In this document: in pieces, positions 58,882 through 62,615 of the stretch | Layout of the letters: each line of letters starts with the position of its first letter | Position numbering within the stretch: position 1 is the first letter of the stretch | From: Pseudomonadota bacterium | GTDB taxonomy: Bacteria > Pseudomonadota > Alphaproteobacteria > Puniceispirillales > Puniceispirillaceae | NCBI GenBank assembly: GCA_027620495.1 | Contig: JAQCEA010000005.1 | Span: forward strand, 62,001 to 126,000 | DNA length: 64,000 nucleotides | Direction of reading: 5' to 3' | Notes under the pieces: generated by a model | Seen by the model: the letters and a program-made list of their open reading frames with translations, nothing else | Told to the model about the DNA's origin: nothing | Databases searched by the model: none | Position numbers and translations under genes: made by a program

Positions 58882-59661
58882 TCATACAGTGATTACCACT
58901 GGCACATGATCAGATGGTTTTTCGGCACTGCGCCAGCCGCGGTGGATCGACACTTCCTCTACATCATCAGCAAGATCATGGCTCACCCAGATATGATCGA
59001 GCCGCCGCCCACGATCGCTTGCCGCCCAATCTCTGGCGCGATATGACCACCAGGAATAAAGTTTGGCATCGGCCCCAAAATAGCCGCGTACAGCGTCATG
59101 CCATCCGCCATCGGCGATCAGTTTTTTCAGCGCGGCTGTTTCCACCGGCGTATGGCTGACAACTTTTAATAATTGCTGTGACGACCAGACATCTTCGGCA
59201 AGTGGCGCAATATTCAGATCGCCCACCAAAATCTGTCGCTTCGGCGGTTTGGCCATAAAATGCTGGGTCATTTCATCAATAAATTGCAATTTATGGGCAA
59301 ATTTTGGATTTTCATCGGGATCAGCAATATCACCGCCAGCTGGCACATAAAAATTATCAATCCGCACACCATCAGCAGTGACAGCCGCGATATGCCGACA
59401 ATCTGATTTGCCAGCCCAGTCATTATGCTGACCGTCAGTTAATGCATGGCGGGAAATGATCGCCACACCATTATAGCTTTTCTCGCCGCGAAACACCTGA
59501 TGCGGCCAGCCAGCCTCGGCAAATGCCGCCGCCGGGAAATACTGATCCTCGGTCTTGGTTTCCTGAAGGCACAACACATCAATATCGGCCTCTTGTAAAA
59601 ACTGAAGAACAAGCGGAAAGCGCAACCGCACCGAATTGATATTCCAAGTTGCAATTCGCAT
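58882..59661 (-). CDS. xthA: Exodeoxyribonuclease III
   Basis: AP endonuclease and 3' exonuclease of 259 aa, starting at ATG 59661 (MRIATWNINSVRLR). Catalytic residues appear in LCLQETKTED, GDLNIAPLAEDVW, and the C-terminal SDHVPVVI; RRLDHIWVSHDL is also present. Next to lolA and ftsK in most relatives, but here separated from lolA by about 3 kb of AT-rich accessory DNA. Confidence 0.95.
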   Translation of the reverse strand: MRIATWNINSVRLRFPLVLQFLQEADIDVLCLQETKTEDQYFPAAAFAEAGWPHQVFRGEKSYNGVAIISRHALTDGQHNDWAGKSDCRHIAAVTADGVRIDNFYVPAGGDIADPDENPKFAHKLQFIDEMTQHFMAKPPKRQILVGDLNIAPLAEDVWSSQQLLKVVSHTPVETAALKKLIADGGWHDAVRGYFGADAKLYSWWSYRARDWAASDRGRRLDHIWVSHDLADDVEEVSIHRGWRSAEKPSDHVPVVITV

Positions 59662-59691: not shown

Positions 59692-60200
59692 TTAGACCGC
59701 TAATTTGGCTCTTTCAAGCTGTTCAGAATATTCCTTTTTTAGTCTATCTGGACTTTCAATTTGAACAAAGCCCAACCAATCAGGATGCATCAATTCCCAA
59801 ATTAACTCACGATGCCCTCTGCATCGCAACTCCATCACTAATGAGCCATTTCTGCCATGACTGACTTTTTGCGATGGGTGAAACTGGACTTTCTCAGCTC
59901 TCTTGGCAACTTCTTTTGCAAATCTGATTTTGATGCTCCATAGCGCATCGCCATGAAAACGCCAAAACTTTCACTCGCCCATTCTTTGAAATTCCAATCC
60001 TTTTTTGGCTCAAAATACTCACCAGCTAATTCCGCATTTTACAATAGGTCTAAGCGATAGGCAATCGGCGCACGATTGCCTGTAGACGCCACCACATAGG
60101 CGAAGCGTCCGAATGCAATCCAAGCGGTCTAACCTGTCTCAAAACGGCAGAATTCCCCTTGTGGGGTCGATGCTTGAACAAGCCGTTGCGCTTGGCAAGA
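59692..60200 (-). pseudogene. Decayed WYL-domain transcriptional regulator
   Basis: Reading the minus strand across frames recovers the C-terminal half of a WYL regulator: KHRPHKGNSAVLRQVRPLGL, then (after a one-base loss near 60115) FGRFAYVVAST ... PIAYRLDLL, an in-frame TAA at 60041-60039, NAELAGEYFEPKKDW and WASESFGVF. After a further one-base loss in the run at 59956-59959 come GDALWSIKIRFAKEVA, FHPSQKVSHGRNGSLVMEL, the HRELIW helix and VQIESPDRLKKEYS before the TAA at 59694. No helix-turn-helix domain was found upstream. At least three lesions mean it is dead. A 9-bp perfect hairpin (60059-60081) lies within it. Confidence 0.8.
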
Positions 60201-60477
60201 AAATTCAAATGAACATCAAACACCAATTGGCTGTACAACAAATAATATGATTTTTTGAACACTTGCAAATATTGCTGTGGCAAGAACAATACTTATCAAC
60301 AAAAATAAAAGTTTTTGCGCACGCGTTTAAATTGCCCTCATCGTAGTCTCAGTAGTATTATTCTATCTCGTTTATAATATAGGATTATTATAGAAACGAA
60401 GAAATTTGTTGCTGAATGGGAGACAGCAAATATGCCTGTGTAAAAGTCATGTTTGCACCTCCGTCTGATCAAAGTCA
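60201..60477 (+). promoter_or_regulatory. AT-rich leader of the TPR-sulfotransferase gene
   Basis: No intact gene. A good -10 box TATAAT lies at 60373-60378 but without a clear -35. A small hairpin TTGCTG/CAGCAA stands at about 60411-60431. Base composition is visibly more AT-rich than the flanking core genes. Confidence 0.4.
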
Positions 60478-61365
60478 GTGAAACGCAAAAGAAAAAATAA
60501 CATGACAAAATTACTTGGTGAAGTGAGATCTCAACGGCTACTAATGCTTTATAGAGAGCGAAGGTATCGCGAATTAAATTCTGAAATATTTACCCTTGCC
60601 AAAAAGTTTCCAAATGATTTTTTCTTACACAACTTAGGCGGTATCGTAGCGGCGCAAACCCAACTTACCGATCGTGCAATTAAATACCTCAAGCGCGCAA
60701 TGAGCCTCAAACCTGAAGCAAGCGAACCGTTTGTTAACATCGGATATTTGTATTTAAACACCAACAAGCCGAAAGAAGCGCTGAATGCATTTTTGCGCGC
60801 TCAATCTCTCGACCAAAAGAATGTTGAAGCTCAGATTGGCAGAGGACTAGCGTTACAGAGCTTAGAGCAATACCCTAAGTCCATTGAGGTATTCAGAACC
60901 ATTCAAAAAACTACGCCAAACGATTCCCGCATTTGTTACCACATTGGAAACACTTATCAAAAAATGGGACAACTAGACGATGCAATTGTTGCACTCAAAA
61001 AATCGGTCGCACTTAACCCTAACTTTTTTGAAGCACAAAACAACCTTGGTCATGTTTTTTTGGATAAAGGGGTTTACCAGGACGCCAGCATTGCATTCAA
61101 AAACGCTATTAAAATCAGACCTCAAAGTGCTGGTGCACACTGCAACCTTGGGAATGCTCTGACTAACATAGACACAAATGAGGCAATCAATGCCTACAAT
61201 AACTCGTTAGCTATTGAACCCAAGGATATGAACGTTCATGTCAATCTCATCTCTTTGTTGATTGAAAAAAATCGACTCCACGATATTTTTCAAGCCTTTA
61301 GAAAAGCAATTAAGATAAACCCCCAAAGTCAGCGATTTTGTTTAACAACATCGGCATCTCAATGA
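60478..61365 (+). CDS. TPR-sulfotransferase, N-terminal TPR part (frameshifted)
   Basis: Residues form about seven tetratricopeptide repeats, for example NLGGIVAAQTQLTDRAIKYL, NIGYLYLNTNKPKEALNAFL and NNLGHVFLDKGVYQDASIAF, each ending in a Pro-containing turn. GTG at 60478 or ATG at 60502 (MTKLLGEVRSQ) may be the start. The TPR series is cut at about 61336: the frame runs into a stop at 61365 while the same TPR pattern carries on in the next frame. One extra T in the run at 61336-61339 would restore a single protein of about 690 aa. TPRs would recruit the acceptor. Codon use is AT-rich, unlike neighbours. Confidence 0.8.
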   Translation: MKRKRKNNMTKLLGEVRSQRLLMLYRERRYRELNSEIFTLAKKFPNDFFLHNLGGIVAAQTQLTDRAIKYLKRAMSLKPEASEPFVNIGYLYLNTNKPKEALNAFLRAQSLDQKNVEAQIGRGLALQSLEQYPKSIEVFRTIQKTTPNDSRICYHIGNTYQKMGQLDDAIVALKKSVALNPNFFEAQNNLGHVFLDKGVYQDASIAFKNAIKIRPQSAGAHCNLGNALTNIDTNEAINAYNNSLAIEPKDMNVHVNLISLLIEKNRLHDIFQAFRKAIKINPQSQRFCLTTSASQ

Positions 61366-62555
61366 TGCAGCAGGGACAGATCAGTAAAGCCATGGCGTAT
61401 TTTCAACAGGCAGTTAAATCTGATGCAAATTTTGCGTATGCATATGCTAATTTGGGGTTCATTTTCCAGAGCCAAGGCGATTTCACAGCAGCTAAAAAAA
61501 GCTTTAAACAAGCCATAACAAAAAAAACAGATTATGCTCTCGCACATCGTATGGCTATTAATCTTCAACGATCAAAAGTGAAAAATCTTTGGATCAATCA
61601 AATGTTGAGCGTTTACCAGTCAGCAAATCTAAAAGCCGACGACAAAGCCCAAATTTGCTTCGCTTTAGCAGTTGCTCATGAAAAAAATTTAAAATTTGAT
61701 CTTGCTGCAGAATACTACGAAAAGGCCAACAAACACCGTTATCAAGCGCTAAATTACGACTTTCGAGACGACCTCAAAAAGTTTGACGCAATTAAAGAAA
61801 TCGTCGGCAAATTCTCAACAATAAAATTTTATCCAAAGAGTCATGCACCGACTATACCAATATTTATTGTTGGGATGCCACGCTCTGGCACGACATTAAC
61901 AGAGAACATAATCTCTGCGCATTCAAACGTTTTTCCAGGCGGTGAACTTGAACTGTTTTTCAAACTAGCAGATAAGATAGTTTCAAAAGCGCTTGTCCCT
62001 GAAAGTTCAACGCTACAAAGAATTCGTGACTCTTACTTTGAGAATTTGAAAAAAATTGCTCCTCATTCAAAATTTATCACTGATAAACTACCTCACAATT
62101 TCATGCATGTCTGGCTAATTGCACTCTTACTACCAGAGGCAAAAATAATCGACATTAGCAGATCGCCCGCTGCGGTGTGCTGGTCGAATTATACAAATTA
62201 TTTCTCAGGTTCATCTCATGGTTACAGTTGCAATCTCTCCAACTTGATTGAATATCACAGACTTTACGCAGAATTAATGGAGTCTTGGCGGCAAAAATTT
62301 CCACATCAAATTTTTTCAATAAAGTACGAGGCCCTAGTAGAAAACTTGGAGCAAAACGCCAGAAATCTTATCTCTTTTATAGGCCTGAATTGGGAAGATG
62401 CTTGTTTGAAGCCAGAACTCAATGACAGGCTAGTTCTAACCGCTTCCAGTCAACAAGTCAGGCAAACTGTTTACTCAGGCAGTTCGGAGAAATGGAAGCA
62501 CTTTGAGCCTTATCTGGATAGGAAATTTGATATTTTCTCTCAGTCAGGCAAATGA
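61338..62555 (+). CDS. TPR-sulfotransferase, C-terminal part with sulfotransferase domain
   Basis: Begins in the middle of a TPR (FNNIGISMMQQGQISKAMAYF), adds two more TPRs, then a PAPS-dependent sulfotransferase domain (Sulfotransfer_3 type) from about residue 170. The 5'-phosphosulfate loop is FIVGMPRSGTTLTENIISAH, the 3'-phosphate site IIDISRSPAAVCWSNYTNYF, and the acceptor-region motifs GGELELFF and FITDKLPHNFMHVWLIALL follow. The first codon here is TTG and not a natural start; it is the continuation of the frame before. TPR-sulfotransferases are common in marine bacteria and may sulfate surface glycans or peptides. The acceptor is unknown. Confidence 0.85.
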   Translation: MFNNIGISMMQQGQISKAMAYFQQAVKSDANFAYAYANLGFIFQSQGDFTAAKKSFKQAITKKTDYALAHRMAINLQRSKVKNLWINQMLSVYQSANLKADDKAQICFALAVAHEKNLKFDLAAEYYEKANKHRYQALNYDFRDDLKKFDAIKEIVGKFSTIKFYPKSHAPTIPIFIVGMPRSGTTLTENIISAHSNVFPGGELELFFKLADKIVSKALVPESSTLQRIRDSYFENLKKIAPHSKFITDKLPHNFMHVWLIALLLPEAKIIDISRSPAAVCWSNYTNYFSGSSHGYSCNLSNLIEYHRLYAELMESWRQKFPHQIFSIKYEALVENLEQNARNLISFIGLNWEDACLKPELNDRLVLTASSQQVRQTVYSGSSEKWKHFEPYLDRKFDIFSQSGK

Positions 62556-62615
62556 CTTTTTTCTTCCAAGTTGCAAATTTCACAAAACAGTTCTCAGACC
62601 CCAACATGATTTAAG

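Follow-up and report, generated by a model that had tools for sequence, protein, structure and literature searches.

Fusions of an N-terminal TPR array to a sulfotransferase domain (PF13469) are found among the alphaproteobacteria, and the gene described here resembles them in domain order, motifs and 34-residue repeats, with about 30-42% identity over the enzyme half; what sets it apart is a frame that breaks off between one TPR and the next. The tyrosylprotein sulfotransferases of human and tick (3ap1, 3ap3, 8w5z) have in common with it the PRSGTT loop and the conserved glutamate of the G-E motif, but identity is only about 20% and the eukaryotic enzymes lack a TPR array. The chromosomal setting of the gene has its own described counterpart in the dusA-targeting islands, in which the 5' end of a housekeeping gene is replaced, the original 5' end is displaced to the far side, and short direct repeats are present (PMC4482086). 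The insert that carries our gene likewise replaces a 5' end, with a displaced original and direct repeats, but its target is xth, only 2.9 kb is left, and an integrase was not found among its ORFs.

The window, by which we mean the whole stretch of 64,000 nucleotides that was analysed, comes from a marine SAR116 bacterium (Candidatus Puniceispirillum) and contains a gene for a predicted sulfotransferase whose reading frame is broken. We consider, with a probability of roughly 70%, that this locus reflects a recent frameshift inactivation of a nonessential gene of horizontal origin. On this reading it is an ordinary accessory gene of a known family that was inactivated recently; an earlier note on this DNA saw the lesion but mislocated it. 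Because relatives have the whole gene, the locus looks like ordinary gene decay and not like a new mechanism. If so, the locus adds to the examples, within a major marine clade, of genes that were gained horizontally, may serve in surface modification and turn over rapidly.

One protein in two reading frames

Two plus-strand frames that overlap from 61314 to 61362 share between them a single TPR array and a single sulfotransferase domain (PF13469), with the following features:

60502..61365, plus strand: upstream ORF, first ATG at 60502 and a possible GTG start at 60478; about seven TPR units; TGA stop at 61363-61365
61314..62555, plus strand: downstream open frame, opening after the TAA at 61311; two TPRs and PF13469; stop at 62553-62555
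61362..61365, plus strand: ATGA overlap, in which the upstream ORF stops and the downstream ORF has an ATG that might serve for re-initiation, read from the sequence
61857..61901, plus strand: PAPS-binding motif region PIFIVGMPRSGTTLT (predicted 5'-phosphosulfate loop), intact

A Pfam search identifies the upstream half as a TPR array and the downstream half as two TPRs followed by Sulfotransfer_3 (E 4e-40), the match covering the whole domain (profile positions 1-216) at 138.8 bits against a curated cut-off of 27. These domains, and homologues in which they are fused in one frame, bear out the proposal in the earlier note that a single TPR array and sulfotransferase domain are split over two overlapping frames. 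Its description of both halves as stop-free with their motifs kept is also accurate: there is no other stop or shift in either half, and both retain their repeats and motifs, the PAPS loop included. The 1.2 kb downstream of the break contains no further stops, which fits a very recent event but would equally fit an error or a functional split.

Within the PAPS-binding PRSGTT loop, residues G183, P185, R186, S187, G188 and T189 are invariant or nearly so across 21 homologues. In searches against solved structures the best sequence matches of the enzyme half are tyrosylprotein sulfotransferases (E 2e-6), and its predicted structure (pLDDT 90) has the same enzymes as best matches in Foldseek, with an E value of 5e-7; the conserved loop and the matching model indicate a PAPS-binding loop and the sulfotransferase fold. 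A PF13469 search of the organism's own genome revealed no second gene of this family.

Position of the frame break

Any shift within 61314-61362 rejoins both frames, and the position of the break must therefore be judged from the protein. Two sites within the overlap, where the longest homopolymer is five bases, have to be compared:

61320..61324, plus strand: C5 tract, the likeliest break site, at the junction of two TPR units, with two surplus bases in the 34-residue register (alignment, repeat register and repeat scoring)
61336..61339, plus strand: T4 run, the break site proposed in the earlier note, less well supported (sequence and repeat scoring)

When aligned with homologues, the downstream frame matches gap-free from 61323 (PKSAILFNNIG against PNYAEAYNNLG). 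In five of the nine homologues compared, the alignment starts at P-K-S-A-I-L-F-N-N-I-G (proline codon at 61323) and continues unbroken to the conserved N-x-x-G; in the remaining four the local alignment begins at or beside N-N-I-G. This gap-free alignment argues for a break in the C5 tract and not in the T4 run.

According to a TPR repeat profile derived from ten homologues (69 units), the last complete unit before the break lies at 61222-61323 and the next starts at 61326, such that the two abut in the 34-residue register with two bases to spare in or beside C5. Adjacent units are spaced 34 residues apart in 53 of 53 cases in the ten homologues, with one double interval of 69, whereas the R-F-L-F-N-N-I-G join that was proposed at the T4 run would create a 35-residue repeat. 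Scored against the profile, a join in the C tract is superior to one at T4 by 5.6 bits with a two-base model and by 2.6 bits with a one-base model. The repeat register and the repeat scoring thus both make the C tract the likelier break site; the T4 run exists as described, but alignment and scoring favor a break outside it, and the loss of one T is not supported as the exact lesion. A one-base loss requires an exceptional 35-residue TPR unit, and the lesion may be either a two-base gain or a one-base loss from an ancestor with such a unit. If this placement is right, the locus also shows that repeat register can outperform inspection of homopolymers in locating a frameshift.

Homologues and the ancestral state

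A survey with the enzyme half covered 61 relatives, 136 genomes of the order and 385 of the class, and yielded about 95 alphaproteobacterial homologues, as a rule in a single frame of about 470-1340 amino acids and in no case as a natural two-gene version. The short homologues that we checked are either cut by contig ends (G206, G258 and G035:C55) or are broken copies (L227 and L018); because the first three end at contig edges, they do not count as evidence for split genes. With nearly all of the homologues examined in one frame, the fused form is ancestral and the split derived, and the window's copy, in two frames, has the character of a pseudogene formed by frameshift. The relatives' gene is fused, albeit at another chromosomal site, and does not take the form of the two separate genes that the earlier note had named as evidence against its proposal. 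Among the explanations offered there, very recent loss is the best supported.

No close homologue was found in the surveyed relatives, order and class, where the best match has 41% identity, and neither protein pattern scans of genome and viral contigs nor DNA comparison with phages revealed a close relative. We found nothing specific in the literature on the TPR-sulfotransferase family in SAR116.

Other TPR fusions in the order are also interrupted. A TPR-sulfotransferase homologue in a genome from another family of the order (G090; L227:1230-1420, minus strand, reverse-complement coordinates) has an in-frame TAA (KPDYA*AHINLG) in the TPR unit that corresponds to the window's break, and likewise is left with two TPRs plus the enzyme domain. 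A second homologue (G041; L018:1470-1530) is broken at an A10 run within the sulfotransferase domain, and a TPR-methyltransferase-like fusion in the same genus as the window (G009; L273:700-720) is interrupted between two TPR units by an in-frame TAG. Single disabling lesions seem to be frequent in TPR fusions of the order, in keeping with decay of the window's copy.

Sequencing error or genuine lesion

The organism's gene could be intact and the deposited consensus could contain a local indel in the C tract, introduced during sequencing or assembly. The break lies in or beside the longest homopolymer of the overlap, the rest of the gene is intact and the homologues are fused, all of which such an error would explain; however, the tract is only five bases long, and homopolymer errors do not usually have the two-base size that the 34-residue register demands. 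As an indirect check, a census set 345 kb of this assembly against 1.2 Mb from a complete genome in the same genus (G003). There was no credible frameshift in 228 reference frames at 50% identity or above (65,800 aligned residues), some of the 228 being antisense shadows, such that the effective number is smaller. The candidates that did appear were judged to be spurious: one that was inspected is crossed by longer ORFs on the opposite strand, and the remainder look like paralogues arranged in tandem or like a frame antisense to an adjacent gene. The census indicates that the assembly is not generally indel-prone and that systematic sequencing error is unlikely. The possibility of error, which the earlier note had raised, is thus weakened, and we regard a single local error as rather unlikely; the cell's own DNA presumably carries the indel.

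Separate halves, recoding and phase variation

The two halves could also be made separately, through termination and re-initiation at the ATGA at 61362-61365, with the products either associating or the two-TPR sulfotransferase acting alone. The overlap is present, the downstream half keeps all of its motifs and on its own models well (pLDDT 90), and the L227 homologue is interrupted in the same TPR unit, leaving two TPRs and the enzyme domain. However, an A before TGA is expected by chance in about one third of cases, there is no apparent Shine-Dalgarno-like sequence upstream, the L227 lesion is an in-frame stop and not a gene junction, and a two-gene version is absent among the approximately 95 homologues. 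A functional split is thus improbable. On the main reading, of an inactivated gene, re-initiation at the overlap may still yield the sulfotransferase half. More improbable than a functional split is that selection for a two-TPR sulfotransferase made on its own lies behind the interruption of one and the same TPR unit in two lineages of SAR116, by frameshift in the window and by in-frame stop in L227, the long TPR array being a separate or dispensable partner.

The earlier note's suggestion of programmed slippage is considered here as -1 ribosomal frameshifting at A_AAC_CCC (61317-61323), aided by downstream hairpins. This heptamer is in the correct frame and is followed at a spacing of about 9 nt by two small hairpins, with a z-score of -2.0 in one of the three windows tried, but heptamers of this type occur in 29% (upstream ORF) and 15% (downstream ORF) of windows of equal size, and equal or greater folding stability is reached by about 7 of 200 windows across the gene. 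Furthermore, the homologues are in one frame and require no shift, and the product would contain a 35-residue unit. Neither a slippery site beyond chance expectation nor a shift site conserved in the homologues is seen, and the background counts of heptamers and folds leave programmed shifting unsupported and very improbable. The shift-prone heptamers of E. coli listed in a review include C_CCA_AAG (PMC5009743). This heptamer is present at the locus, although its frame is the other one, in which slipping by -1 would be of no use.

Phase variation at a short homopolymer was also among the explanations put forward in the earlier note. It would proceed by slipped-strand mispairing, and a surface-modification enzyme would be a plausible phase-variable gene. 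Known contingency loci have tracts far longer than four or five bases, and here the longest tract in the overlap is five; pattern scans of genome and viral contigs revealed no alternative allele. With neither a long simple repeat nor alternative alleles, and no positive evidence otherwise, phase variation is barely credible.

The insert at xth and a proposed history

The broken gene lies, beside a truncated WYL-type regulator, within an AT-rich insert of 2.9 kb by which the 5' end of xth was displaced. The GC content of the insert drops to about 0.39 (range 0.37-0.41), compared with 0.50-0.58 in the surroundings, and in the closest relative (JADHLR010000030.1, Candidatus Puniceispirillum, SAR116; Xth 83% identical) the gap between lolA and xth is 48 bp, with no insert. 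The sequence of the insert and its edges contains the following:

59642..59654, no strand: left copy of the 13-bp direct repeat TTCCAAGTTGCAA, inside the present xth 5' end, attachment-site-like
59692..59970, minus strand: truncated WCX domain (the C-terminal part of a WYL-type regulator), the second decayed gene of the insert
62564..62576, no strand: right copy of the 13-bp direct repeat, in a displaced start of xth (minus strand, GTGAAATTTGCAACTTGGAA)

The displaced GTGAAATTTGCAACTTGGAA resembles the ordinary xth start of relatives (ATGAAAATTGCAACTTGGAA). The direct repeats together with this ordinary-looking displaced start suggest that the insert entered at the 5' end of xth and brought a replacement for that end, and direct repeats flanking an insert that is lacking in the closest relative are what is expected of a genomic island. 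The attachment-like repeats, the displaced xth start and the truncated WCX gene indicate a decaying element, apparently the remnant of one that targets xth. No integrase was recognised among the ORFs of 59692-62615, and there is no Rfam match or tRNA near the insert. As a side result of the analysis, the element's choice of xth as its insertion site may prove the more useful finding.

We propose that the ancestral gene would have encoded a single fused protein, with about nine TPR units in front of a PAPS-dependent sulfotransferase domain of tyrosylprotein-sulfotransferase-like type. It would have reached a Candidatus Puniceispirillum (SAR116) genome by horizontal transfer, as part of a small AT-rich element that inserted itself at the xth 5' end. 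The frame would then have been broken, recently, by a small indel where two TPRs meet, most likely within the C5 tract (61320-61324). Translation would now end at 61365 and give a TPR-only fragment, so that the full enzyme would be lost, and the broken protein is presumably non-functional. In the intact protein the TPR superhelix would, by analogy, hold the acceptor while the enzyme domain transferred sulfate from PAPS, a model that draws on knowledge of the family and on TPR glycosyltransferases such as OGT. The substrate is probably a surface glycan or protein.

The lolA-xth spacer varies across the order and contains AT-rich cargo in several genomes (L092:1088-5598, L095:873-11447 and L190:670-5469). 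With names assigned by reading the translations and not by family search, the L092 spacer contains a carbamoyltransferase-like gene, and TPR and glycosyltransferase-like genes are found in those of L095 and L190 (GC 0.26).
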